From IMG/VR virus record IMGVR_UViG_3300025138_000248, positions 1-28,559 of that record: a stretch of 28,559 bases of DNA, one strand, 5' to 3'. The notes under the pieces were generated by a model. That model ran no database searches and was not told the DNA's origin. It was given only the letters and a program-made list of their open reading frames with translations. The position numbers were made by a program, and so were the translations under genes. Shown piece by piece: positions 1,077 through 24,645 of this stretch (positions are counted from its first letter, which is position 1; each line of letters begins with the position of its first letter). Source of the DNA: a virus.

Positions 1077-1084
1077 AAATTCCA

Positions 1085-1093
1085 TATTTATAA
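1085..1093 (+). promoter_or_regulatory. Putative late promoter motif before the 128-residue gene
   Basis: TATTTATAA lies 9 bases before the ATG at 1103, in the 26-base gap after the sigma factor gene. The same 9-mer occurs in two other intergenic gaps (6265-6273 and 27995-28003). The shorter leader and the lack of the ACAAACAAC tail make this the weakest of the three. Confidence 0.4.
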
Positions 1094-1102
1094 TAAAATA
1101 AT

Positions 1103-2881: not shown

Positions 2882-2909
2882 TAATGGATATTAAACAAAA
2901 TAAAATAAT

Positions 2910-7174: not shown

Positions 7175-9070
7175 ATGGCATTTTCAAAAACATCAAATAT
7201 TTCTAGAGAAAAAAGTATTAAGTATTTAAATAAAAATTTTAATGATTTTAAATCACAACTAACAGATTTTGCAGAATCATATTTTCCAGATACTTTTAAT
7301 GATTTTAGTGATTCATCTCCTGGAGTAATGTTTATGGAAATGGCTGCTTATGTAGGAGATGTTTTATCTTATTATCAAAGTACTCAACTACAAGAAAATT
7401 TCTTATTATTAGCACAAGAAAAAGAAAATCTTTATAATTTAGCTTATTCTTTAGGGTATAGACCTAAAGCTACTACTACATCAACAGTAACTTTAGATTT
7501 ATTTCAATTAGTTCCTTCAGATCCTACTAATCAGTATCAAGCTGATATGAATTATGCTCTTACAATAGAACAAGGATCAACATTTAAATCTGAATTAGGA
7601 CCTGAATTTATATTAGAAAAAGATTGTAATTTTAAAACAGATTCTGATGTTAGTCCTTTAGAAACATCAGTATATTCTATAAATAATAGTACAAATCAAC
7701 CAGAATATTATTTACTTACTAAAAAAGTAAAAGCAAGTGCAGGAGAATTCAAAACAGAAACTTTTCCTGTAGGAAGTTTTTCTAAATTTTTAACTTTAGA
7801 ATTAAATGATCCTAATATAATATCAATAGAATCAATAACAGATTCTGATGGTAACAGATATGATGAAGTACCTTATTTAGCCCAAGATACTCTTTTTGAA
7901 CCAATTGAGAATATAGCAAGTAATGATCCTGAATTACATGGTTTTAATGAGTCAACTCCTTATCTATTAAAATTAAGAAGAGTTCCAAGAAGATTTGTAA
8001 CTAGATTAAAATCAAACGATAGATTAGAAATACAATTTGGGGCAGGAGAAAATAGTATAGTAGATGAAGAAATAATACCTAATCCAGATAATATTGGTTT
8101 AGGAATTAAAGATGGAATAAATAAAATGGAATTTGCATATGATCCTTCAAATTTCTTATACACAGGTACTTATGGATTAGTTCCTACAAACACAACATTA
8201 AACGTAAACTATAGAATTAATAAATTTGGTTTACAAGCAAATGTACCTACTAACACAATAAATAAAGTAGGTACATTATTTGTAAAAACTACTCCTAATG
8301 TAGATAATAGCTTATTACAATATGTTAGAGATTCACTATCTGTAAATAATATGATAGCAGCAACAGGAGGAGGAGCAGGAGATTCAGTTGAAGAAGTAAG
8401 ACAAAATGCTATGGCAGCATTTTCTGCTCAAAACAGAACAGTAACTAAGGATGATTATTTAATTAGAACTTTATCTATGCCTGCTAAATTTGGTAGAGTA
8501 GCTAAAGCTTATATAACACAAGATGATCAAATTTCACCTTTAACTTCTAATCCAGGTAGAATACCTAATCCTATGGCTTTAAATTTATATACATTAGGAT
8601 ATAATAATAATGGTAATTTAACTACTTTAAATAAAGCAACAAAAACAAATCTCCAAACATATCTAGAACAACATAGAATGTTAACTGATGCTATTAATAT
8701 TAAAGATGCATTTATAATTAATATAGGAGTAAGCTTTGAAATAGTAGTATTTAAAAACTTTAATAACCAACAAGTAATAAAACGTTGTATTGAAGAACTA
8801 AAAAAATATTTTAGAGTAGATAGATGGCAAATAAATCAACCAATAATAATATCTGAAATATATACTACTATAGGAGCAGTAGAAGGAGTACAATCAGTAG
8901 TGGAAGTAGGAGTAAATAATATAGTAGGATCAAGTTTAGGATACTCACATTATAAATATGACTTAAGTGATGCTACTATAAAAGGTATAATTTATCCCTC
9001 ATTAGATCCAAGTATATTTGAAGTAAAATTTGCTAACCAAGATATTAAAGGAAAAATAACAACATATTAA
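7175..9070 (+). CDS. gp6: Baseplate wedge protein gp6 (J-like)
   Basis: 631 residues, close to T4 gp6 (660). The N-terminus has the conserved sequence SSPGVMFMEMAAYVGDVLSY (residues 47-66), followed by QLQENFLLLAQEKENLYNLA (71-90) and SLGYRP, typical of marine T4-like gp6. The central region is a beta-rich domain. A Baseplate_J-like segment follows with GGGAGDSVEEVRQNAMAAFS (near 400-420) and a VTKDDYL element. The C-terminus carries EGVQSVVEVGVNNIVGSSLG. The protein dimerises and forms the ring of the inner baseplate that switches from dome to star on contraction. Three bases separate it from gp25 and one base from the next gene. Confidence 0.92.
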   Translation: MAFSKTSNISREKSIKYLNKNFNDFKSQLTDFAESYFPDTFNDFSDSSPGVMFMEMAAYVGDVLSYYQSTQLQENFLLLAQEKENLYNLAYSLGYRPKATTTSTVTLDLFQLVPSDPTNQYQADMNYALTIEQGSTFKSELGPEFILEKDCNFKTDSDVSPLETSVYSINNSTNQPEYYLLTKKVKASAGEFKTETFPVGSFSKFLTLELNDPNIISIESITDSDGNRYDEVPYLAQDTLFEPIENIASNDPELHGFNESTPYLLKLRRVPRRFVTRLKSNDRLEIQFGAGENSIVDEEIIPNPDNIGLGIKDGINKMEFAYDPSNFLYTGTYGLVPTNTTLNVNYRINKFGLQANVPTNTINKVGTLFVKTTPNVDNSLLQYVRDSLSVNNMIAATGGGAGDSVEEVRQNAMAAFSAQNRTVTKDDYLIRTLSMPAKFGRVAKAYITQDDQISPLTSNPGRIPNPMALNLYTLGYNNNGNLTTLNKATKTNLQTYLEQHRMLTDAINIKDAFIINIGVSFEIVVFKNFNNQQVIKRCIEELKKYFRVDRWQINQPIIISEIYTTIGAVEGVQSVVEVGVNNIVGSSLGYSHYKYDLSDATIKGIIYPSLDPSIFEVKFANQDIKGKITTY

Positions 9071-9071
9071 A

Positions 9072-10220
9072 ATGGCATATTATTCTATATTTCCCGAAAA
9101 AGACGCAACAATATATAGTCATCCTAATAGGATAGGTTTAAATACTGGTAGAGATGAAGTATTAGAATTATTAGAAGAAAAATCATCAACTGCTGAATTA
9201 TATTATCCTTCACGTTTTTTAATTAAGTTTAAAAATACAGAAATTAAAGATATTTTTGAAAATAAACTAAAAGGAGTATCTCTTTGGAGATCTAATTTAG
9301 AAATATTTTCCACAGAACATAAAACATTACATGCAAATCACATAGTACAAGTTTATGCAGTATCTCAATCATGGGATGAAGGTACAGGTAGATTTAAAAG
9401 TAATCCTTCATCATCTAATGGAGTAACTTGGGATATGAGAACAGATACAGGTTCAAGTGCAAGAGCAATATGGACAACTTCAAGTTTTGCTGCTAATTCT
9501 ACAGGTTCTAGTTGTGATTTTATGGTATCAGGAGGAGGTACTTGGTGGACAGGAGCTAATTTTGTTGCAGAAAATTCATTTAATAACGCAGATAATTTAG
9601 ACTTAAATTTAGATGTATCTAATATAGTAAAATATTTTTCTGCAAGTTTTTATCAAGGCGCTACTTACCCAACAGGAATAGAAAACGAAGGATTTTTAAT
9701 TAAAAAACCAGAACCTACAGAATGTGATGCATCAGCTAGTTTTGGTGAATTACAATATTTTTCTGCAGATACACATACAATATACCCACCTAAATTAACA
9801 TTTAAATGGGATGATTCATCTTATACTACAGGTAGTAATATTGTATTGACTAGTGGAGATATATTTCTAGCATTATATAATAATAAAGAAGAATTTCAAA
9901 GAAAATCAAAACAACGTTTTAGATTAACTACTAGAAAAAGATATCCAGATAGAGCTTTTGTAACAAGTTCAAATTATTTAGATACACAATATTTACCTAC
10001 CTCTAGTTATTATAGTTTACGTGATGCAACAACAGATGAAATAATAATTCCTTTTGATACTTCATACACAAAATTAAGTGCGGATAATGATGGTATGTTT
10101 TTTGATTTATGGATGGAAGGATTACAACCAGAGCGTTATTATAAACTTCAATTTAGAGTAGATAATAATGATGGTATTAATATTTATGACGAAGATTATT
10201 ATTTTAAGGTTGTTAGATAA
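9072..10220 (+). CDS. DNRLRE-like baseplate/tail structural protein
   Basis: 382 residues. The N-terminal 210 residues resemble the DNRLRE domain. They contain FPEKDATIYS (7-16), NTGRDEVLEL (24-33), SRFLIKFKNTEI (47-58), a helix/strand pair and then the hallmark VYAVSQSWDEGTGRF (94-108) with nearby Pro/Ser and Trp-rich segments. The C-terminal part (about 280-382) has RFRLTTRKRYPDRAF, SYYSLRDATTDEIIIPFDT and ERYYKLQFRVDNNDG, which looks like a beta-sandwich present in marine phage homologues. It stands between gp6 and a structural gene, so a peripheral baseplate role is likely. Its stop overlaps the next start by one base (TAATG), suggesting translational coupling. The exact T4 counterpart is not clear. 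Confidence 0.65.
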   Translation: MAYYSIFPEKDATIYSHPNRIGLNTGRDEVLELLEEKSSTAELYYPSRFLIKFKNTEIKDIFENKLKGVSLWRSNLEIFSTEHKTLHANHIVQVYAVSQSWDEGTGRFKSNPSSSNGVTWDMRTDTGSSARAIWTTSSFAANSTGSSCDFMVSGGGTWWTGANFVAENSFNNADNLDLNLDVSNIVKYFSASFYQGATYPTGIENEGFLIKKPEPTECDASASFGELQYFSADTHTIYPPKLTFKWDDSSYTTGSNIVLTSGDIFLALYNNKEEFQRKSKQRFRLTTRKRYPDRAFVTSSNYLDTQYLPTSSYYSLRDATTDEIIIPFDTSYTKLSADNDGMFFDLWMEGLQPERYYKLQFRVDNNDGINIYDEDYYFKVVR

Positions 10221-12124
10221 TGGGAAGAATAGATCCAAAATTAATAGTATCAGGAGAGGAAAGTTCCATTAAAATTGTTAAATTTAAAGGAAAAACTTCA
10301 TTAAACGCAAACCATCAACATGATTTTGTGGTATATGAAGATGATACTATTGAGATTTTTGAAGCATTTATAACAAATAAAGAAACAGGTCAAAAAGAAA
10401 AACATACACATGAATATTTAGGACCATATCCTTATGGTATAATATCAAAAGTTTTAAGTAATTCTAAAGCAAAAAGAACCCATGACCATAAAATAGATAG
10501 TGTTTCTCATCCTATTAATTTACAAAAAACAGTTTATGGTAAAAAATCATTTGGAGAAAATGTAGATAAAACTTTTAATGAATTTATATCTCCTAAAAAT
10601 ACCATTAGTATAGAAGAATTTTTTAAACATTACCAAGAAATGTTTTATGAAATACCAAGAGATGGTGATAATTCTCATAAATCTATAATAGCTCAAAGTA
10701 CAGATTATATAGGTGATTTTCTAGATGATAGAGATGTAGAAATAATAGAACTTACAAATACAATAGTAGACTTAGAACAAAAACTAGCAGAACAAGAAGA
10801 AGCAGATAAAGAACATCCAGTATTTACAAACGGTACTTTTCTTAAAGAAGCAGATAAAAAGACAATTTATTATATGGATAAAGGAGCTAGAAGAGCAATC
10901 ACAGATTATGATACTTATTTAGTTCTTAAAAGAGTTAATGGTCATGAAACCGAAAAGGCAGACGAAGAAGTTTATATATTAGTTAATGAAGATGTAATAA
11001 AAGGTTTAGAAGTAGGTCCTAGATTTGCTTCTGAAGACTTATATGGGGATAATGAACAAAGAGATAAAGCAGAAGAAAAAAGAAGAGTAGAACTAGACCC
11101 AGATGACTTCGTAGCAGACCCATCTCATTATGATACTACAAGTGATTACATTGCTGCTCTAGACAGAGAAACAAGACAATTATTAGCTAAAGAAGAATAT
11201 GTACAAGAATTATATTATAGATATAAATCTGACAGTGAAAATATATTTAATGATGGTGAAAGAGAAGAAGCAACTAATAAATTTACAGAAGTACGAGAAG
11301 AATTATATGATTTAAGAAGAAGAATACTAAGATATACAGATATTTTAGAATCAGTAGATCCAGATGGAGATTTACAAAATATAGAAATAGATACTTCACG
11401 ATTAAAACAAATAGTGGAAGAAAAAATGTCAAGACCTGATAACCAATTTTCCCAAGCAGAACTTAAACAATTAAGATCTAAAGAAAATAAAATAGGAAGG
11501 TTTTTAGATTCACAAGGAAAAGCAACTTATGGTAGACCTGATAAAAAAACAATATCAGGGGCACCATCTTCAGAAATGGCAGGAATGTCAACACCAGGAT
11601 CAGATTCTTCAGCAATGTCAGGATATTTAGCAGGAGCGGGTATTACAGGTGTAGGAGCTGCAACAGAAGAAGAACCTAAAAATCCTCCTGCAGGATATGT
11701 ATCCAACGGAAATAGAACAGTAAAAAACCATACTATAAACGAAGCAATTAGAGCAATGAAATTAGGAGCAAAATCTCCAGGTGGAAATTATTATTGGACA
11801 TTAAAAACTTTACCTAATAAAATAAGTGAAACCCCAGATTTAGATAATCCTCAATGGCAGGTATATTTAGATAAAAAGGCAAAACCAATCCCTACGGGAA
11901 TTGGAATAGGAGGATCAAGTATAGGAGGAGGTACAAGTATAGGAGGAGGTAATTGGGGCCATGAAGAAGCAAAACGACAAAAGATAAATATATATGCTGT
12001 AAAACCAACTTCTAAATACTATTGGTCTACTTCTAAATTTGAATGGTATGTTGTACCAGGTAAATTCCCAGGTGTAAAATCTAGAAACTGGCAAGGAAAA
12101 ACCATACATAAACTTAATGGATAA
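10220..12124 (+). CDS. Baseplate-region structural protein with His pairs and coiled coil (unknown)
   Basis: 634 residues; no named family recognised. The N-terminal 100 residues carry three HxH pairs: H32/H34 in NHQHDF, H62/H64 in KHTHEYLGPYPYG and H88/H90 in RTHDHKI, plus H97. This is suggestive of metal binding, as in trimeric tail-tip proteins. Residues 168-197 (DDRDVEIIELTNTIVDLEQK and onward) form a coiled coil. A small module at 207-241 contains IYYMDKGARRAITDYD. Residues 275-440 are charged helices, then a Ser/Gly/Ala-rich region (about 455-485). A Gly-repeat linker (GIGGSSIGGGTSIGGGN) joins a final basic, aromatic-rich domain. It overlaps both neighbours' stop/start codons by one base, placing it tightly in the wedge operon. 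Confidence 0.65.
   Translation: MGRIDPKLIVSGEESSIKIVKFKGKTSLNANHQHDFVVYEDDTIEIFEAFITNKETGQKEKHTHEYLGPYPYGIISKVLSNSKAKRTHDHKIDSVSHPINLQKTVYGKKSFGENVDKTFNEFISPKNTISIEEFFKHYQEMFYEIPRDGDNSHKSIIAQSTDYIGDFLDDRDVEIIELTNTIVDLEQKLAEQEEADKEHPVFTNGTFLKEADKKTIYYMDKGARRAITDYDTYLVLKRVNGHETEKADEEVYILVNEDVIKGLEVGPRFASEDLYGDNEQRDKAEEKRRVELDPDDFVADPSHYDTTSDYIAALDRETRQLLAKEEYVQELYYRYKSDSENIFNDGEREEATNKFTEVREELYDLRRRILRYTDILESVDPDGDLQNIEIDTSRLKQIVEEKMSRPDNQFSQAELKQLRSKENKIGRFLDSQGKATYGRPDKKTISGAPSSEMAGMSTPGSDSSAMSGYLAGAGITGVGAATEEEPKNPPAGYVSNGNRTVKNHTINEAIRAMKLGAKSPGGNYYWTLKTLPNKISETPDLDNPQWQVYLDKKAKPIPTGIGIGGSSIGGGTSIGGGNWGHEEAKRQKINIYAVKPTSKYYWSTSKFEWYVVPGKFPGVKSRNWQGKTIHKLNG
11906..11953 (+). repeat. Short in-frame Gly-Ser/Thr repeats
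   Basis: Three imperfect units beginning ATAGGAGGA (ATAGGAGGATCAAGT, ATAGGAGGAGGTACAAGT, ATAGGAGGAGGTAAT) encode IGGSS, IGGGTS and IGGGN, a flexible linker before the last domain of the surrounding gene. Confidence 0.8.
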
Positions 12125-14493
12125 TGGAAAAGGTTACAATAAATAAAATAGAAAGACTAAAAGTCTCAGATTCTAAAGGTTTAACTTCTAGAGATATTAA
12201 TAGAAAGTTTGGTAAAACTAATGATTATATTGAACTTCATATTCATGATTTAGGGGGAGAATTATTAGAAACAACTCCTAATTATCAAGGATATAGCCTT
12301 CCAGATCAAATAGAAAGCAATACATCTCAATTAACTAGTACTTTATTTATAGATCCTTATCAACATTTAGACGATAAAGGATATAAAACAGGAACTTATA
12401 ATGTAGCATGTAATGTCCATAGGAAAAAAATATTTAGTGGCTTACAAGCAGATTTTAAAATCCATGAAATTTCTCCTTCAAGAACAGAATTAAAATTAAA
12501 AGGATTAGGAGTTGATGAAAATAGAGTAAAAAAAGCTATTCTTAGTTTTATAAGTGAAATAGAAACATCTCTTTTTAATAAAGATTTTATTTTAAATTTT
12601 GGTAATAATATAAATATTTTAGGAATTAATGTAGCATACCATAATACAGATGGATGTGCTTTAATTAAATTATACGAACCACTTCCCCCTAATATAGAAA
12701 TAGGAGCAGAATTTTGGGTAGTAGAAGAAATAATTGAACCTTTAGAATTTAAAGTTGATTTAGGAGAAACTCCCATAGAAGAGGGGGGTATACCTTTAAG
12801 AGGACCCAATTTCAGAATAGATACTCGTTTAAATGATTCTATTCCTTCTCAATTTAAAGTATATAATGATTTTTTAGAAAATACCCATTCAGCTTCATTA
12901 TATAATGTATTAAGTCACTTAAGTGAAAGTATAGAATTATCTATAGATTATACCCAAACAGGTACAGGATCTTTAGAAACAGGATTTCATTTTGAAAACT
13001 TTACTCATTTTGGTAGTGCTGAAGAAAGATTAAAAAACTTTAAATATAAATTAGAATTATTAGAATTATATCAAAGACAAATAGATGAAATAAATACAAT
13101 TCAAGGTAGTGTATCTGCTTCAGCTGCTATTACTACTAATATAAGTTTAATAGAAACTAAAAAAGCAAAATTAATAAGTGGACTTGATAATTATGAAAAG
13201 TTTTTATATTATGAAAACCACCCATTTGCTTGGCCTAAAGTCCCTGATTTTGGAATAGGTAATTTACAAGTAACAGGATCAGCATTATTAGATGAATCTT
13301 ATTGGTTACAAGTAGGATTAACAGATTGTGATGTATTTTTTAAACCTTATAATTTAAGACCAACTACTTCTTCCCAGGCAAAAGAATGGTATGGAAATAC
13401 AAATGAATTAAATATAGATTATGGAGGACAAATATTATCAGCCTCTAGATTTGATAGAGATAATAAACATAATTTAGTAAGAACTATTCCAGAACATATT
13501 TCTATGAGAGAAGAAAATGTTCAATATTTAACTTTTACTAATATGATTGGTCATTATTTTGACCAAATATGGATTTATATAGATCATATAGGACAAATTA
13601 GAAATGCTCATAACTCTTTTAAAGACGGTATTTCAAAAGATTTAGTATATACAGCTTTAAGTAGTTTAGGTGTAGAGGCTTTTGATCAATTTGAAAATGA
13701 AGAATTATTTGAGTATATTATAGGAACTAATAAAACTAAATCAGGTTCTTTTGGGACATATGATGCCCCTGACGGAACAACAATGATAACTTCTTCTTTA
13801 GTAACATGTGATAACGGGGGAGGTTCAATGCCTAAAGGAGATATAACAAAAGAAATTTGGAAAAGATTATATCATAATTTACCTTATCTTTTAAAAACTA
13901 AAGGAACAGAAAGAGGTATTAAAGCCCTTATGAATTGTTATGGTGTTCCAGAAACTATATTAAATGTAAAAGAATATGGAGGACCAACAACAGATTCTAC
14001 TACTTATAAAACATTTAATTATGAAAAATTCTCAAGAGCTTTAGCAGGAAGTTCAGATACTGAAGGATATTTTATAAAAGCACCATGGGCATCTTCATCT
14101 TCTCTATTCACAGGAACTATAGAAAGCAGACCTAATAGATCAGAAGGTAAAATTATTTTTTCTATAGGAGCAGTAAAAGATTTATTTAATGCCCCCTTCC
14201 CTAAAACAGTAGAATTAACAGCTACAGATTTATCAGTTCATACTTTTACTTCAAATTATGATTTTTTACTACATGGAGAAAGTGGTTTAGAAACAGCTCA
14301 AAGTTTAGCAGGAGCTATAGATGCACATACATTATTTTCAGCTTCTGTTTTTGTAAGAGAAGATTTATATGATCCTGCTCATGAAAAATATAATTTAGAT
14401 ATTGAAATAATGATTACCCAACATCTTCAGGGTATAGATGGCAATACAGAAATAAAAGGAACTTTATTTGAAGATACATTAACTCCCGCTTGT
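12124..14493 (+). other. Conserved N-terminal flank of the giant protein (gp7/P2 I-like)
   Basis: Residues 1-790. The signature LPYLLKTKGTERG at 586-598 and the following ALMNCYGVPETI correspond to the C-terminal motif of tail protein I, where a KGT-x-R-x-I-x-A-L-x-x-x-G pattern is conserved. The first part of the flank is compositionally like neighbouring wedge genes: charged, few Cys, few Thr runs. Confidence 0.5.
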
Positions 14494-17400
14494 GGTAATC
14501 CACAACAATTTCCTGAAGTAGAATTTTTAACAAAAGTAGATTTTAATGCAGGAGGAGGTATAAATAATTCAACAACAGTTACTACAGTTATACCTGGTAT
14601 TAATACATGTTCAAGTAAAGTATTAATAGAAAACGGAATAACAGCAGATGGATCAGGTAATTTAATTAATAATGGATTATTTCAAGATGATGCTGAATTT
14701 ATGGATTTTGTTACAAATGTAACAAATGGGTATACTAATACAGATATTTCTTTATATAGTTTTGAATCATTAACCCCATCAGCTATTCCATTATATTTAG
14801 GAGAATTCCAATGTAAAGGAATAAATGATTATGGTTTATTTGTTATAGAATGTTTTAAAGCAGATGATTGTGTAAATATTCAATCTGTAGTAACCCCAAC
14901 AACATTTTCTCCAGGAACAACAGCTGTAGGTACAATAACTATTCCTAATAATGTTGGTCAAAATAATGGCCAATATGATGGAGAAACAGTAATATTAACA
15001 TCAGCAGATGGTACTGCTCATACTTTTACTTTAACAGGAGGGGGTTCAGTAAATTCAATAGGTCAAGATCTTATGAATGCCATAAATGCTGATCCTAATT
15101 TTACAGCTATAAATTTAGATTCAGTTCCTCAAAGAACGGGATATTCTTTAGAAATAATAACAATAGCTACTGGATCTAGTACTAATAATCCTATACAGGG
15201 TTCTGCACTTAATATGTCAGGAGATGTAGCTATTATGTCTTTAATAACAAATGGACTTACAGGGGGTACAGATTCAACAGGAGGAGAAGCAGTACTACCT
15301 CCATCAAATAGTACTTGTAATGCAATTTTAGATTTTTATATTGATGGTATTAATTTGTCTTTTAATGTTACTACCGTACAATTCACAGATTATATAGTTC
15401 AAGGAACTACTGGAGATTCTACATATGATAGTTATTTAACTCAAGCAATTCCTTACGCAGCAAGTACACACATTTATGATGGAAGTGCTTATGTGACTTC
15501 TGATGGTAATTCTTACAATTATGGTCCCACTAATAGTGATTATGTTTTTTCACATCCTACTAATCAAGTTTTTGTAACTAGTACATCTATTCAAGCAGCA
15601 GACAAACAGGGTTATTTAGATCCTAGTGAAATTTTAAATTATTGTAATCGTGCATGTGGTAATGTGTCAAGTATAAAAGACGCGTGTTATACCAATTATA
15701 CTACGTTTATTAACGCATTAAATGCTCAAGGTATAATAAATGTAAGTATACCAGGAGTAAATGTAGATACAAAATGGTCCGAATTAAAAGCAGCAGATAT
15801 TATTACTCATTTTCCAGCATCCTCATCTTGTGGATGTGATAATTATGAAATAGGTAATATTACTACAAAAAATACTTTAACTCAACAACCAACAGTTAAT
15901 ACTAGTATACCTTTAGGACAAGGAGCCCAAAATGATAATTATGGAAAGAATGGAGTTAAATTTTATTCAGATACAATAACTACTAATTCATATAATATTT
16001 CTCAAAATAATAAATATTTTGGGGGATCTAATATTAATGATGGACGATTAAATAATATAGGAGTTTGGGACGGAACTAATCCATGGACAGGAGGTACCAC
16101 TATTATGAATCCTATAAACCAATGGATAGGTTTTTCAAAATGTATAACAGTAAAAAATGCTGGAGAATATTTAATAGGACTAGCAGGAGATGATAGAATT
16201 AGATTAGCTATAAATGGTGAAATGCTAATTGAAAAAGATACAAACAGCGCAGATAATTATAATTATTGGTGGGTTTATAAAGTATTTTTAGAAGCAGGAA
16301 ACAATACAATAGTTTTAGAAGGAAAAAATGATGATGATGATGCATCGTTTGGGTGTGATATAGTAGGACCTTTTCCAACAGGTACTTTTAATTCAGAAAC
16401 TGATTTTCATGACATAGATAATAATGGAATTACACTTAATGGAATATCATATAATGATTTAGAAGATCTATATAAAAATAATATAGTATTTAGTAGTCAA
16501 GATGAATTAAGTACATCAACATTAGGAGGAGAAATATTTGCAGGTTCTTTTTACGGAGATCCAGATACAGACACAGGAGTAACAGATGAAGCATCTAATT
16601 ATGTAGATCCTGAACGTGGCGGAATACCTCAATTAGATTGGTTTATAGCTAATGACCCAACAGTTCAATTTAATTTCAGAAAGTTTGCATATTCTCATCC
16701 AGATTACTTAACAGCAACAGTTTCCACCTCATTATCCTCATATACCCCTTGTTTTGAATCACAAAACCAACCAACACGTTTAGATGCGAATGGTGATTCT
16801 ACATACTGGCATACCTTGCAAACTATAATTATAAGTTCTAAAGGATGGCCTCCTACACTTACTACAGGATTTATAATGCCAAATAGTTTTGGTGGTCACC
16901 AATCATATAATACAGGTGATGGTTTGTATTATTCAGATTTAGGGGTTTATAATAGTTGGGAGAGTTTTATAAATGCTTTAAATGCAGTAGAAGGTCCTGA
17001 ACAGTTTCTTACTTCTATGACTAGAGCTGAAGTAGAATCAAAGATAAAAAATGCCGAACAATCACTTATAAATAGTCAATCTTTTCTTGATATTCATAAT
17101 CAACTTATAACAGCTCCATATGACATTCAAATTAAAATTGCAACAACTGTATCTCATGTTATTTGTACCCAAGGAACAGGATCAGGAACAGACACAGGAG
17201 GAGAATTTAACACACAAACAAATCAATGTCCAGAAGGTTATTTATATAATGAATGTACTAAACTTTGTGAAAAAACAGAAATAACAACAACTGGAGAAAA
17301 TGGTTGTGGAGGTATGGTTTTTAATTCAAATAGTTGTGATGATAAAATAGATACAAACCATAGTGGTCTGTCATTTACATCACACATATATGGTATTGCA

Positions 17401-20400
17401 GCAAATCCCGATTATCATAATGTTGAATTTAATACACTTAAATGGTCATTAGGAGGGGGAAATAATCAACTAATACCATTACCTGCTGCTTGTGTACAAG
17501 ATGAGGGTCCTCATTACGCTTATATTAAATATGTTACATATTCTGGTTTAGGTAATGTACAATATACTTCTTGGTCTTCATTTATAGATGCTATTAACGC
17601 TTTAGGTTATTCATTTCAATATGGAAACGAAGTAAATGAAACAAATTTTGGTTGGCAAGATTTAGAAGAAGAACTAGGAGCAAGTGAACTAACATGTGTA
17701 TGGGATTGGTGTGGTTGTGGAGATAGTGATGGATCCTTTGCAACATCAGCAGAGTTTGTAGATTACTTTACTGATTTTGATAATGGTTTTTATGGTCAAA
17801 ATATAGATGATTATTATTTTGAATCAGATGAACCTTTACCTTGGGGTACTTTTGTAGAAGACCAATGTACAGGATCTAATGGTTTACCTATTAGAAGGGT
17901 TGTTGGATTTAAAAAAGATTCATCAATATTACCTATAGATAATACTTTATATATTAATTATCAAACATTTATAAATCAATTAAATGTTGATGGGCACGGT
18001 GTTTCTGAAACAGCCAATTTTACAAATTTAACATCAGAATTAATCACAGGATCTTTTGAAGGATCTTGCCAACATAAAACTTTAATTTCAAACCCTCAAA
18101 CATCTGATGGTAGTTTTCCTACTCCGGGATCTGGAAATACAGGTATGGTTGATTTCTTAGAATATTATTCTGAACAAGGAAATAATATACAAGATATAGC
18201 AGTAGATGGGTTTAAATTTTCTGTTGATCCAGATACTTTAACCCAAACCTTTCAAGAAACCTGCCCATTAGATGCAACAATATATTGTTTTTATGATGGT
18301 ACTTCAATGTCAGCAGAAGTATTTACTAATGTAATAGAAACTATAGAAAATTGGGTAGCAGATCAAGGAACTGATTTTACAGGTACTATTTATCATATGG
18401 TTAATTCTTATGAAAGGTGGTTAGACTGTGCCCGATTGCCTTTTACAAACATTGGAGATCATTTACTAAATGGTGGTTTTGGTTCTATTTCTACCATTTA
18501 TAGTCATAATGATCCAATAAGATTAAATTCTGATATAAATACCACTTACACACCCCAAACAAATACTATTACTTCTGGAGAAAAAGCATTTAATGGAAGT
18601 CACAATTGGTACAAATTAGCTAAAAACGGAACAGGTAATACTAGATCTAAGCAAATAGTTAAAAACATTGAGAATGGTGGTTTGGTAACTATTCAAGGTC
18701 AATCAGTTACTTTAAAATCAGTAATTAATGATGGTAATGGATTATATGATGATGAAGTACCTAATAAAGCAGATAATTATGAAGGTGTTAATTGGAATTG
18801 GAGAGGACCCGCTCCCTCACTACAAAACGCAACAGATAAAGCTTTAGTATTTAATTTTTACGATGAATCTTCTGAAACATCTTCTTCTGGTAAGAGACAA
18901 TATCACCAATCATCTAACAAAACAACACCTGATTTTTCTGATGTGGGTTTAACACAAGCTAAAATTGAGTTAGGTGGTTCTCAAGGTCAAAAAGATTGGA
19001 GAAGTGATTATGAATTGTTTATTAAAACATACTTTGAAAATATAGATAGAACAGCAACTAATTATAAAGATCAAGGAGATTTAATTAATTTTATGTATCC
19101 TTCTGCCCCTATAGGGTTAATAGCTAATGGATCTTCTGTTATTCAAGGGGTAGATGGAGTAACTGCATTTCATAAAACAATGTTAGCTTTTCCTCTACAT
19201 GCATGGGGTTCTATTCTAACAGGTAGTGCAACCAATCCAGGAATGTTAGATACAGGTCATGAGTATTTAGAAACAGCACCACCAGCTAATAATGCTATAT
19301 ATCTAACTGCTCTAGACAGTAATGGTGGAGCAAATTCAAATCCTTATGCTGAAGCAACTTGGGCTAATGAAACAGGACTAGGTACCCCATCAGGATATGA
19401 TCCAACATATGGATATGGTGGTTTACAAAATTATGGGTGGGTAGTAACTTCTGAAGCAGTTAAGGAAAATGCATTCACTTCTTTTGAATTTGAAAATGCT
19501 TTAGAAAAAGTATTAAATGATACATTATGTTCTGATTTTACAGTTCAAGAATTTACGGATCCTAATATATGTTTAGATGTAAATGGAAATATGTTGTTTA
19601 CTATTAATGAATTCTTTATGGATCCTAATATTAATTCAACTCCATTTACTAAATATACAGATTATATAACTGAAGGTCAAAACGCAGGAAAAGTAATAAC
19701 TTTAGCAGACACAAGATTAGAATCACAAATAGGAGGACCAATATCTGTAGATGAATGTATATGTGCTGATGTATGTCCTAATGATTTAGTACTTAATAAT
19801 AATACAATAATAACACTTACAGGATCTTTATTTGATCAATATAATTCACCTTTCACAATAGGACAATCTATTACACAAGCAAATAATAATGGATTTTCTG
19901 CAACAGTAGAATCTTTAGATTCAGATTCAAATGCAATAATAATAAACATTACTAGTGGTACATTAACATTTTCAGATCCTTTAGTAGATGTAGGAACAGG
20001 AGCTCAATATATTCCAGATCCACAAACGGGTGAATTTATAATATCTCAACCACAAGGAGTATTTACTAATTATGATGAGTATATGAATTTTATATCTGAT
20101 CCTGTAAATGGATATAATACAACAAATTTAAATACTTTAAAATTTCAATTAGTAGACCAATCATTTCAAGAAATAACTACAGAAGAAGAAGATTGCTCTA
20201 TTAACGCAGATATATATGTTTATTATGATCATACTTCAATGGGAGATCAAGCAATTCAAGATGCATTTATATCAGTAAATAATTGGGTTTTAGACTTACA
20301 AACAACACAAGGATATAATAAAACAGTCTATCACATATTTGCACGGGACGAAAGATGGGTAAAATGGGGTACTGGTACTTTAGAAGGATTTACAGACCAA

Positions 20401-23400
20401 AATAAATACCACCCTTTAAATTATAACACAGAACCATATTTAATTTCAGCATCAAATGATCCAGGAAATTTCCCAGTACCTGGGGGTATATATAGTGGTA
20501 CTTATCCTGCTTCTAGTCCTTTATCTTCAGTAGGACCAGCAACAGAAGATGTTCTTACAATCTGTTATTTAGATGAATCTGATAATGAGTATGTGAATTA
20601 CGAAAATAGTAGTGCTAGTCCCTATAACCCTCAATTTAGTAGTAATATTAATGCAGCATTCCAAGTAGATCGTAATGATTATGTAAGTGCTTATAATCAA
20701 TTTAATGGGGGGAATGTAGCAAATTTCTTTTATCCAACCCCTAATTTATATAGAACCACAGGAGGTGACCTTACAGCTCATTATACTCAAACTATATTAG
20801 AAGCATTAGCATCAATAACAAGTGGAGATAATGATACTGGATTATTAGCGAATCCTCCTTCTACACCAAATATGCAAAGCACAGGAGATACCTCTTTAGG
20901 ATCTCCTTGGACAGGACATGCTTTTTATAATATATTGAAAACTTCAAACCCTTATTTTAATCAAGGATTTGGAGAATTAGACAAATATGGGTGGGGACTT
21001 AATGTAACTTTCCCCGCAATGTCTTCAACACAATTAGCTATAGATCTTAATGAATTTGTATCTACTTCAGATTTATGTATAACAGAAACAGTACAAGAAG
21101 TAGAAATAAATGTACTATGTACAGGTTCAACATCAACAGACACAAACCAATATGGATTATATACAGTTGAAGGTTTTTATCAAAATGCATTAATAGAACC
21201 ATCATCAACAATTAATGAATATTCAACTGATCTTACACTTTATGGAAATTGGAATGATTTTATAACTCAAAAAATCCAAGAAGATGGAGCAACAGGTATT
21301 AATTTTTTAAATAATAATGGTGCTAATATTAACATAAATACTACATGGGATGATTTATCAAATTCAGTAGCAACATCAGGTACAACAACCACAACAACCA
21401 CAACAACTATTGCTGGCCCCACAATTAATGTATTTACTATTGGCAATCCTTATACTTCTACATTTAATAATAGTAGTCTCAATTCAGGAATAACAGGAAA
21501 TCCTACCCAACAATTAAATTGGTTAATAAGTGAGGGACACGGACAAAATATAGATGGATGGTATTTTGACAATGACACATTAAATAGTGCTAGTAATGCT
21601 AATGGTTGTTGTTGTGATAATTTACCCCCAGGAGGTAATCCAAATGGCCATTCAGGAGGGGTATATAGCACAGTAGAAGATTTTACTTTTACATGTATAG
21701 GTGAACAAGCTTTCTCATCTGTAGCAGGTACTTATCAATCTTGGCATACATTTATTGACACTATAAATCAGTTAAATTACATATCTGTACCAGGTACTAC
21801 AACTACTGGATTTAATGCAGGTTCTGCTTGTGAGGGTAGTACAGATACAGGAATAAGTGGATCAGCTTATACTAGTTCTCTAACTTATAATATTCAGTAT
21901 TGTGTAAATAATGGAGGAGCTACATATACAGGAAATGTTTTTCCAGGAAATACAATAGAAGAAAATTATATAGATTATGTAGCTGCAAATGATCCTACAA
22001 ATGATTTTTCAAATTATTATTTTGAAGACACTGGATATAATGTGGGAACATGTTCTTCATATTCAAAATATGGAACTGGGTTTACAATACAATGTCTATC
22101 ATCAACATCCTCAACAAACGCTGCAGCAGGATTTTTTGGAAATTTAATGGTATCAGGAACAAACTCATCCTTAGAATATACTAGTTGGACAAGTTTTATT
22201 AATGCTTTAAATGTATCAGAAAACATAAATAATAAAGGAGCTAATCCTTTTTCAGTCACTAATACTTTATTACAAGTTTTAGATAAAATGGATGGTTTTT
22301 GGCGTAATTATGATACTGGAACAGAACAACCAACTGTTGAATATAGACTTGATTTTGGTGTAGATTCATGTGAATGTAGTACGACAACAGGACCAAGTAC
22401 ATCAGTACAACAAGACATATTTACTTATCAAGATGATGTAACGAACATATTAACTTATTTTAATTCTACTTCAGAAATAAATTATAGTGCTGCTTTTATA
22501 GTAAATACTAGTGAAGCTAGTTGTGAAGACATACCAGGACCAACAATAGATGTAGAAGATACTCAAAGTATATCAGGAAATATTTCTTTATATGGACAAA
22601 TAGATGGAGGAGCTTGTGTTTGTATTCCAGAAACAACAGGAGGAGAATCATTAGACGGAGACATAGAATTTGAATCATGTATTTGTTGTCCTGAATCATC
22701 ATCTATATCAGTGGGATGTTTAGTAGCAGGAGAAGTGTCTAGTAGTAGATGTGAATGTTCAGCAGACACTTATGAAACAATTATCAATTTTGTTTCAGCT
22801 AGTAGTTTTGAAATAATTCCATCTAGTTCTGCTAAAATGGTAGAATTTAGAATTAAACCACATAGGTTAGATAAACCAGAATATACATCTTTAGAGGCAT
22901 GTTGTGATCCTATTGTAACAGTACCAACAGCTTCACATTTATTTAGTTTATATAATGAACATCACCCAGAAGTAACACCACATTTAGTTTTAAGACCTTA
23001 TACAGGTAGTGATGTTTCTTCTTCTGATGATTTTAAAAATTTCGGTTCCTTAGATTTATATAAAAAAGGATTAATAGTAGGTAGTACAGATATATTCCCC
23101 GTTTATAATGGGAATTTTTGGAATATATTTATAGGAACAAAAGGAGAATCAGGAAGTAATAGTGAAGTATATTTTGGAGCCTATCAATCTAATTTTTTAG
23201 GTCATGTCACTCATCTAACAGCTTCTGCTACATTTAGTGAATATGAAAGAGCTTTATCTTTTGGAGACACAGCTTATAATTTAGCTAATAGAATTCTTCC
23301 AGCAGAAACAGCATATTTTTGTGGAGTTCCTACTAATACTAATAGTGTAAGTGGTAGTGTAAATACATTTAAATATTCAGGTTCTCTTCAAGAAATAAAA

Positions 23401-24645
23401 TATCATATTAAAGATTTCTTAACACATGATACCTTAACAAAACATGCATTAGATCCTTTTCAATATGCAGGTAATACTGTTAGTTCATCTTGGAATAATG
23501 TGTATTTAAGATTACCATTAGGAAGTAATAATAAAGTAGATTCAGCTTCTTATAATAATAATGGATTAGGAATAATTCAAAACTTTAACCCACACCCATC
23601 ATTTAGTTTATATGAATCTTCAAGCATATCTAGTTCTATTACAGGTCAATCCTTTAGTGAAGTTTACGAAACCCACAGACATTTAACACCAGATACTGTA
23701 GGTATTTCAACTACAAGTGAAAAAGTTAGAATAGATTCAGGTTCAGTAGATAGAAGTATATTATCATTTGATATAAAATCAGAAACATCTACATTAGATA
23801 GACAACCTTTAGATTATAATGATTTAGGAGTATTTTTCTCACCACAAGCAGAAATAAATGAAGATATTGTTTATACTTTAGGTGCATTTAGAATGGATGA
23901 TTATATAGGAGATCCAACTCATCAAAGCTTAGCAGAATATCCTGATTTAGAAAATTTAAAGTTAGAATATTTTCAAAAATATTTAAATAGTCACAGACAA
24001 AATATGTTTGATTATATAAGATTAATTCAATTTATAGATCATACTTTATTTAAAGTAGTAGAACAATTTGTACCTGCAAAAGCTAATTTAAAAACTGGTT
24101 TATTAATTGAGCCTCATTATTTAGAAAGACAAAAGTTTGCAAGACAAATACCTACATTTGAAAGATTAGAAAGAGATGCAGAATTTGATCCTTATTTAAA
24201 TTTAGAAGGAGAAGTCAAACATTATGAAGCTTGTATTAATATATCTGATAAAACAAATGAAAATTATTATACATGGGAAGGAGCATTAACAGCAAGTGAT
24301 AATTTATATATGAGCCAAAGTAAATATGCTTCTGATGAATGTAATCCTTATATTACATTATATGATAATTTTGATCCTTTATATGGAAATTATGTAGATT
24401 GTATAATTAGTAAAGAATATTATTATGTTTCTAAACCACCACAATTTTACCAAAATGATCCTGTAAATGAGGGTATAGATCCTAGAATCACAATAAATCC
24501 TCCTTCTCCTTCAAAACCTTCAGGATATGGAGGACGTGAGGTTATTCAAACAAGATTAGTATCACAACAAGGTACACAACAAGCAGCAACTAAAAGTACT
24601 AATGGAAATACTAATGGAAATGGAGAAGAATCTGGAGGATATTAA
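12124..24645 (+). CDS. Giant modular baseplate protein, tail protein I/gp7-like flanks with ~2,765-residue insertion
   Basis: 4,173 residues in one uninterrupted frame. Residues 1-790 look like a conserved phage baseplate protein: HIHDLGGELLE (38-48), a coiled coil (298-360) and KRLYHNLPYLLKTKGTERG (580-598), followed by ALMNCYGVP. That last block fits the tail protein I (P2 I) pattern, the family equivalent to T4 gp7. Residues 3560-4173 are a second conserved block with FDYIRLIQFIDHTLFKVVEQ (3962-3981), VPAKANLKTG and EPHYLER. From memory this block also occurs in large tail proteins of other marine phages. Between them lie eight copies of an A-B-C domain, a PA14-like domain, two VWA-like modules and a Cys-rich junction. 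The start overlaps the upstream stop by one base. Position after gp25 and gp6 matches the W-J-I order of P2. Function as wedge plus host-contact appendage is inference. Confidence 0.7.
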   Translation: MEKVTINKIERLKVSDSKGLTSRDINRKFGKTNDYIELHIHDLGGELLETTPNYQGYSLPDQIESNTSQLTSTLFIDPYQHLDDKGYKTGTYNVACNVHRKKIFSGLQADFKIHEISPSRTELKLKGLGVDENRVKKAILSFISEIETSLFNKDFILNFGNNINILGINVAYHNTDGCALIKLYEPLPPNIEIGAEFWVVEEIIEPLEFKVDLGETPIEEGGIPLRGPNFRIDTRLNDSIPSQFKVYNDFLENTHSASLYNVLSHLSESIELSIDYTQTGTGSLETGFHFENFTHFGSAEERLKNFKYKLELLELYQRQIDEINTIQGSVSASAAITTNISLIETKKAKLISGLDNYEKFLYYENHPFAWPKVPDFGIGNLQVTGSALLDESYWLQVGLTDCDVFFKPYNLRPTTSSQAKEWYGNTNELNIDYGGQILSASRFDRDNKHNLVRTIPEHISMREENVQYLTFTNMIGHYFDQIWIYIDHIGQIRNAHNSFKDGISKDLVYTALSSLGVEAFDQFENEELFEYIIGTNKTKSGSFGTYDAPDGTTMITSSLVTCDNGGGSMPKGDITKEIWKRLYHNLPYLLKTKGTERGIKALMNCYGVPETILNVKEYGGPTTDSTTYKTFNYEKFSRALAGSSDTEGYFIKAPWASSSSLFTGTIESRPNRSEGKIIFSIGAVKDLFNAPFPKTVELTATDLSVHTFTSNYDFLLHGESGLETAQSLAGAIDAHTLFSASVFVREDLYDPAHEKYNLDIEIMITQHLQGIDGNTEIKGTLFEDTLTPACGNPQQFPEVEFLTKVDFNAGGGINNSTTVTTVIPGINTCSSKVLIENGITADGSGNLINNGLFQDDAEFMDFVTNVTNGYTNTDISLYSFESLTPSAIPLYLGEFQCKGINDYGLFVIECFKADDCVNIQSVVTPTTFSPGTTAVGTITIPNNVGQNNGQYDGETVILTSADGTAHTFTLTGGGSVNSIGQDLMNAINADPNFTAINLDSVPQRTGYSLEIITIATGSSTNNPIQGSALNMSGDVAIMSLITNGLTGGTDSTGGEAVLPPSNSTCNAILDFYIDGINLSFNVTTVQFTDYIVQGTTGDSTYDSYLTQAIPYAASTHIYDGSAYVTSDGNSYNYGPTNSDYVFSHPTNQVFVTSTSIQAADKQGYLDPSEILNYCNRACGNVSSIKDACYTNYTTFINALNAQGIINVSIPGVNVDTKWSELKAADIITHFPASSSCGCDNYEIGNITTKNTLTQQPTVNTSIPLGQGAQNDNYGKNGVKFYSDTITTNSYNISQNNKYFGGSNINDGRLNNIGVWDGTNPWTGGTTIMNPINQWIGFSKCITVKNAGEYLIGLAGDDRIRLAINGEMLIEKDTNSADNYNYWWVYKVFLEAGNNTIVLEGKNDDDDASFGCDIVGPFPTGTFNSETDFHDIDNNGITLNGISYNDLEDLYKNNIVFSSQDELSTSTLGGEIFAGSFYGDPDTDTGVTDEASNYVDPERGGIPQLDWFIANDPTVQFNFRKFAYSHPDYLTATVSTSLSSYTPCFESQNQPTRLDANGDSTYWHTLQTIIISSKGWPPTLTTGFIMPNSFGGHQSYNTGDGLYYSDLGVYNSWESFINALNAVEGPEQFLTSMTRAEVESKIKNAEQSLINSQSFLDIHNQLITAPYDIQIKIATTVSHVICTQGTGSGTDTGGEFNTQTNQCPEGYLYNECTKLCEKTEITTTGENGCGGMVFNSNSCDDKIDTNHSGLSFTSHIYGIAANPDYHNVEFNTLKWSLGGGNNQLIPLPAACVQDEGPHYAYIKYVTYSGLGNVQYTSWSSFIDAINALGYSFQYGNEVNETNFGWQDLEEELGASELTCVWDWCGCGDSDGSFATSAEFVDYFTDFDNGFYGQNIDDYYFESDEPLPWGTFVEDQCTGSNGLPIRRVVGFKKDSSILPIDNTLYINYQTFINQLNVDGHGVSETANFTNLTSELITGSFEGSCQHKTLISNPQTSDGSFPTPGSGNTGMVDFLEYYSEQGNNIQDIAVDGFKFSVDPDTLTQTFQETCPLDATIYCFYDGTSMSAEVFTNVIETIENWVADQGTDFTGTIYHMVNSYERWLDCARLPFTNIGDHLLNGGFGSISTIYSHNDPIRLNSDINTTYTPQTNTITSGEKAFNGSHNWYKLAKNGTGNTRSKQIVKNIENGGLVTIQGQSVTLKSVINDGNGLYDDEVPNKADNYEGVNWNWRGPAPSLQNATDKALVFNFYDESSETSSSGKRQYHQSSNKTTPDFSDVGLTQAKIELGGSQGQKDWRSDYELFIKTYFENIDRTATNYKDQGDLINFMYPSAPIGLIANGSSVIQGVDGVTAFHKTMLAFPLHAWGSILTGSATNPGMLDTGHEYLETAPPANNAIYLTALDSNGGANSNPYAEATWANETGLGTPSGYDPTYGYGGLQNYGWVVTSEAVKENAFTSFEFENALEKVLNDTLCSDFTVQEFTDPNICLDVNGNMLFTINEFFMDPNINSTPFTKYTDYITEGQNAGKVITLADTRLESQIGGPISVDECICADVCPNDLVLNNNTIITLTGSLFDQYNSPFTIGQSITQANNNGFSATVESLDSDSNAIIINITSGTLTFSDPLVDVGTGAQYIPDPQTGEFIISQPQGVFTNYDEYMNFISDPVNGYNTTNLNTLKFQLVDQSFQEITTEEEDCSINADIYVYYDHTSMGDQAIQDAFISVNNWVLDLQTTQGYNKTVYHIFARDERWVKWGTGTLEGFTDQNKYHPLNYNTEPYLISASNDPGNFPVPGGIYSGTYPASSPLSSVGPATEDVLTICYLDESDNEYVNYENSSASPYNPQFSSNINAAFQVDRNDYVSAYNQFNGGNVANFFYPTPNLYRTTGGDLTAHYTQTILEALASITSGDNDTGLLANPPSTPNMQSTGDTSLGSPWTGHAFYNILKTSNPYFNQGFGELDKYGWGLNVTFPAMSSTQLAIDLNEFVSTSDLCITETVQEVEINVLCTGSTSTDTNQYGLYTVEGFYQNALIEPSSTINEYSTDLTLYGNWNDFITQKIQEDGATGINFLNNNGANININTTWDDLSNSVATSGTTTTTTTTTIAGPTINVFTIGNPYTSTFNNSSLNSGITGNPTQQLNWLISEGHGQNIDGWYFDNDTLNSASNANGCCCDNLPPGGNPNGHSGGVYSTVEDFTFTCIGEQAFSSVAGTYQSWHTFIDTINQLNYISVPGTTTTGFNAGSACEGSTDTGISGSAYTSSLTYNIQYCVNNGGATYTGNVFPGNTIEENYIDYVAANDPTNDFSNYYFEDTGYNVGTCSSYSKYGTGFTIQCLSSTSSTNAAAGFFGNLMVSGTNSSLEYTSWTSFINALNVSENINNKGANPFSVTNTLLQVLDKMDGFWRNYDTGTEQPTVEYRLDFGVDSCECSTTTGPSTSVQQDIFTYQDDVTNILTYFNSTSEINYSAAFIVNTSEASCEDIPGPTIDVEDTQSISGNISLYGQIDGGACVCIPETTGGESLDGDIEFESCICCPESSSISVGCLVAGEVSSSRCECSADTYETIINFVSASSFEIIPSSSAKMVEFRIKPHRLDKPEYTSLEACCDPIVTVPTASHLFSLYNEHHPEVTPHLVLRPYTGSDVSSSDDFKNFGSLDLYKKGLIVGSTDIFPVYNGNFWNIFIGTKGESGSNSEVYFGAYQSNFLGHVTHLTASATFSEYERALSFGDTAYNLANRILPAETAYFCGVPTNTNSVSGSVNTFKYSGSLQEIKYHIKDFLTHDTLTKHALDPFQYAGNTVSSSWNNVYLRLPLGSNNKVDSASYNNNGLGIIQNFNPHPSFSLYESSSISSSITGQSFSEVYETHRHLTPDTVGISTTSEKVRIDSGSVDRSILSFDIKSETSTLDRQPLDYNDLGVFFSPQAEINEDIVYTLGAFRMDDYIGDPTHQSLAEYPDLENLKLEYFQKYLNSHRQNMFDYIRLIQFIDHTLFKVVEQFVPAKANLKTGLLIEPHYLERQKFARQIPTFERLERDAEFDPYLNLEGEVKHYEACINISDKTNENYYTWEGALTASDNLYMSQSKYASDECNPYITLYDNFDPLYGNYVDCIISKEYYYVSKPPQFYQNDPVNEGIDPRITINPPSPSKPSGYGGREVIQTRLVSQQGTQQAATKSTNGNTNGNGEESGGY
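14689..15795 (+). repeat. A-B-C domain copy 1 (with inserted beta domain)
   Basis: Residues 856-1224. Motif A: AEFMDFVTNVTNGYTNTDI then YSFES (857-882). Motif B: YTNYTTFINALNAQG (1189-1203). Motif C: WSELKAAD (1218-1225). A CGC pair (1236, 1238) follows. The A-B gap is about 300 residues because of the domain at 930-1035 and further sequence. Confidence 0.65.
14911..15228 (+). other. Beta domain inserted in copy 1
   Basis: Residues 930-1035, with GETVILTSADGTAHTFTLTG (954-973) then GQDLMNAINADPNFTA (980-995). The same pattern appears at 693-745 in the conserved flank (TVELTATDLSVHTFT, then SLAGAIDAHTLFSAS), so the insertion may be a relative of a domain already in the protein. Confidence 0.5.
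16126..16377 (+). other. PA14-like beta domain between copies 1 and 2
   Basis: Residues 1335-1418. AGEYLIGLAGDDRIRLAING (1346-1365) followed by EMLIEK, then VFLEAGNNTIVLEG (1387-1400) and a DDDD run. The succession 'GDDxxRLxINGxxLI...' then 'LEAGNNxIVLEG' fits PA14-type sugar- or surface-binding modules. Catalysis is not expected. Confidence 0.5.
16627..17052 (+). repeat. A-B-C domain copy 2
   Basis: Residues 1502-1643. Motif A: PQLDWFIANDPTVQFNF then FAYS (1502-1524). Motif B: YNSWESFINALNAVEG (1609-1624). Motif C: RAEVESKI (1634-1641). A single Cys lies between A and B (TPCFES). Confidence 0.65.
17371..17679 (+). repeat. A-B-C domain copy 3
   Basis: Residues 1750-1852. Motif A-like: FTSHIYGIAANPDYHNVEF then LKWSL (1751-1776). 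Motif B: YTSWSSFIDAINALGY (1814-1829). Motif C: WQDLEEELG (1844-1852). A CGC pair follows (1863, 1865). A-B spacing is about 64 residues. Confidence 0.65.
17749..18045 (+). repeat. A-B-C domain copy 4
   Basis: Residues 1876-1974. Motif A: EFVDYFTDFDNGFYGQNIDD then YYFES (1877-1901). Motif B: YINYQTFINQLNVDG (1943-1957). Motif C: FTNLTSELI (1966-1974). It starts about 24 residues after the end of copy 3, the tightest tandem pair. Confidence 0.7.
18145..19734 (+). repeat. A-B-C domain copy 5 (with VWA-like insertion)
   Basis: Residues 2008-2537. Motif A: MVDFLEYYSEQGNNIQDI then FKFSVD (2008-2035). A degenerate motif B, YTDYITEGQNAGK (2511-2523), and motif C, DTRLESQIG (2529-2537), come after the 424-residue VWA-like insertion. 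A CIC pair follows (2545, 2547). Confidence 0.5.
18262..19533 (+). other. VWA-like module 1
   Basis: Residues 2047-2470. A strand IYCFYDGTSMS (D2058) looks like a degenerate MIDAS loop. TIYHMVNSYERW (2088-2099), a second strand ALVFNFYDESSE (D2247), NFMYPSAP, NYGWVVTSEA and a closing NDTLCSDFTVQEF follow. The same ordered landmarks occur in module 2. Metal binding is uncertain because the second serine of DxSxS is replaced by Met. Confidence 0.45.
20065..21369 (+). repeat. A-B-C domain copy 6 (with VWA-like insertion)
   Basis: Residues 2648-3082. Motif A: YDEYMNFISDPVNGYNTTNL then LKFQLVD (2650-2678). Motif B: YGNWNDFITQKIQEDG (3040-3055). Motif C: TTWDDLSNSV (3073-3082). VWA-like module 2 lies between A and B. 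Confidence 0.55.
20191..21093 (+). other. VWA-like module 2
   Basis: Residues 2690-2990. IYVYYDHTSMG (D2702), TVYHIFARDERW (2734-2745), DVLTICYLDESDN (D2817), ANFFYPTPNLY, DKYGWGLNVTF and TSDLCITETVQEV mirror the landmarks of module 1 in the same order. It is shorter because the segment between the first and second strand is about 75 residues smaller. Confidence 0.45.
21382..21408 (+). repeat. Nine-threonine run (three 9-base repeats)
   Basis: ACAACAACC, ACAACAACC and ACAACAACT in tandem encode nine Thr (3087-3095) between copies 6 and 7, probably a linker. The near identity of the units points to slippage. Confidence 0.9.
21499..21780 (+). repeat. A-B-C domain copy 7 (motif C not visible)
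   Basis: Residues 3126-3219. Motif A: PTQQLNWLISEGHGQNIDGW then YFDND (3127-3151). Three adjacent Cys (3162-3164). Motif B: YQSWHTFIDTINQLNY (3204-3219). I cannot find a clear motif C after it. Confidence 0.6.
21955..22293 (+). repeat. A-B-C domain copy 8
   Basis: Residues 3278-3390. Motif A: ENYIDYVAANDPTNDFSNYY then FED (3280-3302). Motif B: YTSWTSFINALNVSEN (3352-3367). Motif C-like: TNTLLQVLDKM (3379-3389). A CEC pair follows (3416, 3418). Confidence 0.65.
22366..22758 (+). other. Cys-rich junction with repeated CxC motifs
   Basis: Residues 3415-3545 hold eleven Cys, mostly as CxC: 3416/3418 (SCECS), 3498/3500 (ACVCIPE), 3519/3521/3522 (SCICCPE) and 3543/3545 (RCECSAD). It joins the last A-B-C copy to the conserved C-terminal flank. 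Metal binding or disulfide cross-links are possible. Confidence 0.6.
22801..24645 (+). other. Conserved C-terminal flank of the giant protein
   Basis: Residues 3560-4173. MVEFRIKPHRLDKPEYTSL (3572-3590), then a lectin-like beta region (LFSLYNEH...GNFWNIFIGTKGE) and a helical block with FDYIRLIQFIDHTLFKVVEQ and VPAKANLKTGLLIEPHYLER (3962-4002). This block recurs, by memory, in large tail proteins of other marine and Bacteroidota phages. The end is a Gln/Asn/Gly-rich tail. Confidence 0.55.

Follow-up and report, generated by a model that had tools for sequence, protein, structure and literature searches.

A giant gp7/tail protein I-like protein, probably a baseplate wedge subunit, with an insert of about 2,900 residues in an environmental virus

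The virus record IMGVR_UViG_3300025138_000248, of which we analysed the whole stretch of 28,559 nucleotides (referred to below as the window), contains an uninterrupted open reading frame of 4,173 codons with no internal stop (Table 1). We find it fairly probable that this giant gene encodes a wedge subunit of the gp7/tail protein I type, in which the wedge domain is split in the sequence and one of its loops carries an insert of about 2,900 residues that helps the phage to grip its host. The insert is lacking from a widespread family of relatives, including the sister lineage of the giants, and the two flanks that remain in these relatives bear a weak resemblance to the P2 gpI and cyanophage gp7 families.

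Table 1. Features of the window discussed in the text (residue numbers refer to the giant protein)
Feature	Positions	Strand	Basis
gp25-like baseplate wedge gene	6740..7171	+	PHROG matches
gp6/J-like baseplate wedge gene	7175..9070	+	PHROG matches; weak Baseplate_J
382-residue gene, first of the two that separate gp6 from the giant gene; kept in relatives, without a family match	9072..10220	+	
634-residue gene, second of the two that separate gp6 from the giant gene; L016 has two smaller genes instead	10220..12124	+	
gp7/tail protein I-like, probable baseplate wedge protein with giant insert	12124..24645	+	ORF and homologues
Conserved N flank, residues 1-656, in all insertion-free relatives	12124..14091	+	homology
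First half of the Tail_P2_I/gp7-like core, residues about 455-620	13486..13983	+	profile match, gp32 model match, PF09684 in one relative
KTKGTERG motif, residues 591-598, in-register anchor to P2 gpI, cyanophage gp7 and T4 gp7	13894..13917	+	
Inserted region, residues about 657-3557 (about 2,900), mosaic, fast-evolving	14092..22794	+	L016 junction; absent from L104; dN/dS, mosaicism
Weak PA14-like stretch, residues 1341-1376	16144..16251	+	Pfam E 1.5e-4; PDB profile
Insert module copy 1, residues 2040-2490, D-G-T-S-M	18241..19593	+	no Pfam or PDB match
Insert module copy 2, residues 2685-3000, D-H-T-S-M	20176..21123	+	no Pfam or PDB match
Laminin-G/pentraxin-like domain, residues about 3558-3815	22795..23568	+	homology; fold of homologous region of L016
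Putative second half of the wedge core, residues about 3858-4010, ends ...FVPAKANLKTGLLIEPHYLER	23695..24153	+	homology; aligned to gp32 with the first half
Variable C-terminal tail, residues 4011-4173, partly common to L104	24154..24642	+	L104 comparison, dN/dS

The giant frame is a real protein gene, since dN/dS is below 1 in every one of its segments, which indicates purifying selection throughout, and it is not an accident of assembly, because the same form is found on other environmental virus contigs: 3,998 residues from stop to stop in L004 and L005, 3,967 residues in L009, and more than 4,129 residues in L007 and L008, where it is cut by the end of the locus, with L003 and L006 as partial contigs of the giant form. 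Lysine and arginine together make up 9.7% of residues 1-657 versus 1-5% of the insert, in which threonine, asparagine and glycine are commoner than in the N flank. The ORF, its homologues and the drop in basic residues all agree with an earlier note, made from the letters of this DNA, which had described a single intact frame with conserved ends and a compositionally distinct middle. The same note called the middle "repeat-rich", which holds for the protein, where we found degenerate modules with six Y..[WY]..FI..[LI]N motifs and a block of 310-450 residues with the motif D-x-T-S-M that is present twice, but not for the DNA, which has just a single 26-bp array in the middle of the gene. Inspection of the DNA for repeats gave no evidence that the insert originated from nucleotide tandem repeats.

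The borders of the insert can be placed by comparison with insertion-free relatives, which are about 1,200 residues long where they were retrieved with 42-44% identity. One of these (L016) aligns to window residues 20-674 and 3558-4010, with 42-44% identity to both flanks; the two parts are adjacent in L016 and nothing corresponds to the insert. On this alignment the junction lies at about residues 657/3558 and the insert comprises about 2,900 residues, starting about 130 residues earlier and being larger than the ~2,765 residues estimated previously. Of 157 frames with both flanks (some of the loci overlap on one contig), 145 have 5-555 residues between them: 5-56 where there is no laminin-G domain, mostly 237-390 where there is one, and 458-555 in a few cases. 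Distances of 3,003-3,427 residues occur exclusively in the window's clade, among relatives that were sampled by similarity (the best 80 loci per scan), so that intermediates outside the sample may exist. The closest relative, L104, has an N flank 54% identical to that of the window and shares part of its C-terminal tail, yet lacks the insert. In the phylogenetic tree the giants form a clade and L104 is its sister (support 100/99 in both cases). Since an insertion-free protein is the sister of the monophyletic giants, a single gain of the insert in the window's clade is the simplest history. Insertion-free forms are thus common among the relatives, as the idea of an insertion into a smaller gene had implied.

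The insertion-free family is itself widespread: besides L016, L144 and L153 it comprises over 560 further stretches of environmental viral contigs, and it carries no Pfam or PHROG assignment. Some of its members (L141, L138, L127, L161 and L132; 1,820-1,990 residues) are enlarged in the C-terminal tail that follows the wedge core and not at the loop where the giants carry their insert. In others (L084, L090, L091, L093 and L096; 458-491 residues between the flanks) the laminin-G domain is separated from the C-terminal core by an extra module of ~170 residues, so that the family has a second insertion place.

The laminin-G-like domain directly follows the insert in the giant and is common to most of the insertion-free relatives. 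The homologous region of L016 has a predicted jelly-roll fold with Z-scores of 14-16 to laminin-G and pentraxin structures (about 15-16 for the laminin-G-like fold). The model of full-length L016 matched laminin-G folds alone, its wedge core being of low confidence, and the core was then modelled in a relative that lacks the laminin-G domain and for which the alignment was deeper.

The assignment of the flanks to a wedge core of the gp7/tail protein I type is moderately supported by four comparatively weak lines that agree: profile comparisons, a Tail_P2_I match in one relative, a structural model, and the lack of an in-register Tail_P2_I match in the two genes between gp6 and the giant gene. 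The place of the gene behind gp25-like and gp6-like genes also speaks for it. The KGT motif or its variant KGS is kept in most of 49 relatives, with RGT in the remainder, and sits between two helices of the core. In hhalign comparisons the profile of the laminin-G-free family scored above 60 out of 60 column shuffles, both with cyanophage gp7 and with the family of P2 gpI, in each case on the KGT motif, whereas against T4 gp7 nine of the 60 shuffles scored as high; the hhalign probabilities for the gp7/gpI links amount to just a few percent. The Pfam family Tail_P2_I (PF09684) matches the homologue in LR756508 at the place of the KGT motif (E-value 0.024), which is the sole match of this family in the 484-kb genome. 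No family member searched reached the Pfam cut-off in the core, and when the core sequence was searched directly against Pfam, PHROG and PDB nothing reached the cut-off. The kinship proposed for the flanks thus gains some support from the profiles of P2 gpI and cyanophage gp7, though not from that of T4 gp7; a match of the flanks to unrelated families was not found, and neither was a lack of insertion-free forms.

A further comparison concerns structure. An AlphaFold2 model of the core of the laminin-G-free relative L153 (mean pLDDT 69.6, below 50 at residues 489-529 and 579-636) aligns with the wedge protein gp32 of Anabaena phage A-1(L) (8KEA, chain c) over 169 of 191 residues, model residues 408-734, with rmsd 8.0 and Z 7.7, a value at which similar arrangements can still arise by chance. 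The gp32 protein, deposited as a wedge protein, itself matches Tail_P2_I with an E-value of 0.0016. T4 gp7 is absent from the fold search lists, an absence that excludes nothing. The matched range covers both flanks, and because the gp32 alignment spans them both, the model lends moderate support to the view that the flanks form one wedge domain with the added modules placed in its loop.

Nearly all of the insert lacks a match to known families, and no homologues of it were found in named phage records. The PA14-like stretch scores 22 bits in Pfam, under the gathering cut-off of 24, and the sole PDB profile match of this region is a PA14 protein (E-value 0.094). The two module copies match neither Pfam nor PDB entries. 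A VWA domain was considered for these D-x-T-S-M modules, two of which have a VWA-like look, and gained no support from sequence: no match was found in Pfam at an E-value of 5, nor any PDB profile match at an E-value of 10.

The insert evolves faster than the flanks in most comparisons. In the comparison with L009, residues 1-657 have a dN/dS of 0.20 and residues 3558-4010 one of 0.13, whereas values in the insert reach 0.40-0.80; across all comparisons the insert ranges over 0.20-0.80, most of it having 0.35-0.80 versus 0.13-0.20 in most flank comparisons. L004 is an exception to this pattern, with dN/dS 0.46 in the N flank and 0.20 where the insert begins. Between the window and L004 the identity is 88% in residues 658-1200 and 69% in the N flank, a contrast that is a sign of module exchange, and whole modules are present or absent between individual giants. 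The earlier note had pictured receptor-binding modules carried inside a wedge subunit. Of this picture, the insertion and the gp7/tail protein I-like core agree with our results; that the insert binds receptors or the host is what the weak PA14-like stretch and the adjoining laminin-G-like domain would suggest.

The preferred reading can be put as follows. The giant would be a gp7/tail protein I-type wedge subunit of a contractile-tail baseplate, whose wedge domain is divided in the sequence: the first half would end after the KGT motif and the next strand, the second half would resume about 3,200 residues downstream, and the halves would fold together. The loop between them would be the site of added modules: immuto-like phages have none there, most relatives have a laminin-G-like domain, and the window's clade has that domain preceded by another ~2,900 residues. 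If the giant is the gp7 subunit, there would be six copies per baseplate, as T4 has one gp7 per wedge (PMC6300606), each sending an appendage of ~3,000 residues from the baseplate rim; the copy number is taken over from T4. The insert would assist the grip on the host surface alongside the fibre proteins encoded downstream rather than replacing them.

The last point departs from the earlier suggestion that the giant takes the place of separate short tail fibres. The window ends before the downstream fibre-like genes, and we used the giant-clade contigs L011 and L013 instead, in which the downstream series is that of insertion-free relatives and includes a gene for a protein of ~870 residues with Laminin_G_3. 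As these fibre-like lectin genes persist, we reject a replacement of the tail fibres by the insert. The giant gene is followed in the window by a gene for a 1,096-residue protein (24687-27977), of which the central stretch alone is common to insertion-free relatives (the comparison took in L015 as well as the giant-clade contigs L011 and L013); its counterpart in L015 has a weak match to the F5/8 type C (galactose-binding) domain.

Upstream, the order of genes is the one noted before, namely a gp25-like gene, a gp6-like gene, two further genes and the giant gene. Two or three genes separate the gp6-like gene from the giant-family gene in the window's lineage, in immuto and in Mel-JY01, unlike in T4, P2 and cyanophages, where the wedge gene directly follows gp6/J; this is a habit of gene order and not a property of the protein. 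It does lend itself to a different reading, which we regard as unlikely, that the giant is some other baseplate or fibre-connecting protein, that the true gp7/gpI is one of the two intervening genes, and that chance accounts for both the KGT motif and the fold match. Both intervening genes are conserved and lack an assignment, and the gp32 fold and hhalign scores of the giant's family are weak. On the other hand, the 382-residue gene has no significant match to the profiles of P2 gpI, cyanophage gp7 or T4 gp7 (6, 6 and 3 of 25 shuffles, respectively, scored as high), and the 634-residue gene matches only that of cyanophage gp7, weakly (score 19.0, 0 of 25 shuffles as high; 24 and 22 of 25 for P2 gpI and T4 gp7). 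Neither of them contains a KGT motif in the window or has an in-register Tail_P2_I match, whereas all three (in-register motif, Tail_P2_I match and gp32 match) occur in the family of the giant. The 634-residue gene has a peculiarity of its own: the two smaller genes of L016 (4094-5215 and 5212-5835) each resemble the same part of it, which suggests a duplication or a fusion.

Two further alternatives concern the use or the history of the insert. Instead of binding the host, it could be a structural spacer or a scaffold that enlarges the baseplate, for instance to hold the downstream fibres or to form a second baseplate layer, which we regard as possible rather than likely. No binding domain can be recognised in most of the insert, the gp7-like part of AlgoCIS holds tail fibres (PMC8894135), and the fibre-like genes are retained; fast mosaic evolution, the PA14-like stretch and the adjoining laminin-G domain are, however, more usual for surface recognition. 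By analogy with the Herelleviridae phage protein Vp4 Gp119, discussed below, host binding would be the likeliest use of the insert. The large form could also be ancestral, with the insert lost from the other relatives, and because cyanophages too have giant gp7 proteins the size could be old. We consider this highly improbable, as insertion-free lineages surround the giant clade in the tree, its sister L104 and all other sampled branches have insertion-free forms, and the insert matches no named phage record.

If the giant is indeed a gp7-type wedge subunit, its family provides a comparative series for one baseplate subunit, in which the same site holds no module, one lectin-like domain or thousands of residues, with a sister that lacks the insert. 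The gp7-like subunit has been described as an evolutionary hotspot (PMC8894135), and such a series makes this idea directly testable. The large insertion-free family, with neither Pfam nor PHROG assignment, suggests itself as the missing wedge subunit of immuto-like phages, whose unrecognised gp7/gpI it probably is. Direct homologues are gp109 of Flavobacterium phage immuto (1,265 residues) and proteins of Microcystis phage Mel-JY01 (1,336 residues) and LR756508 (about 1,400 residues), which have similar neighbours (gp25-like, gp6-like and small unassigned genes) and differ from the window's protein in the lack of the giant insert and, in immuto, also of the laminin-G domain.

Among more distant systems, P2 gpI (Tail_P2_I) and gp32 of A-1(L) share with the giant family the KGT/KGS motif, a place of the gene after J/gp6 and, going by the tentative model match, the predicted core fold; they consist of 176-191 residues without inserted modules. 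Gp119 of the Herelleviridae phage Vp4 is a wedge protein that contains carbohydrate-binding modules and binds bacterial cells (PMC11406892). It resembles the giant in being a wedge-type protein enlarged by added domains, which are carbohydrate-binding in Gp119, and differs from it in size (831 residues) and in belonging to a different wedge protein (BW3, A511 gp105-like) (PMC11406892).

The closest parallel is found in cyanophages, in which gp7 or "baseplate wedge initiator" records reach 4,225 aa in ACG-2014f, 3,045 in S-CAM3, 3,495 in ACG-2014e, 4,458 in MED4-213 and 7,312 in P-RSM3, and PHROG 2885, a "baseplate wedge subunit", spans 4,179 positions. VrlC appears to substitute T4 gp7 in pelagimyophages and cyanomyophages (PMC7029224); we found no paper on giant gp7 proteins in the open-licence literature. 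The gp7 proteins of P-RSM3 and ACG-2014a/d (L208, L211, L209) contain, at residues about 120-610, an extra insert of ~490 residues before the KGT core in comparison to ACG-2014e, so that the same protein has been enlarged at another site there. Like the giant of the window, the cyanophage giants are encoded behind gp25 and gp6 in the tail operon, have a KGT core and possess thousands of extra residues. In contrast, their gene directly follows gp6 without the two intervening genes, the KGT core is near residue 200 in most of them and near residue 590 in the window, and their extra regions have no sequence match to the insert. It is conceivable, if rather doubtful, that a loop of the wedge domain tolerates insertions of any size and that cyanophages and the window's lineage separately built rings of giant gp7 adhesins of 3,000-7,000 residues, the core being split here by more than 3,000 residues. 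Giant gp7-type proteins are already known from cyanophage annotation, and the window adds a well-documented further case to a phenomenon seen before; what is new is the family, its clean insertion-free sister and the evidence for an insert inside the wedge domain.
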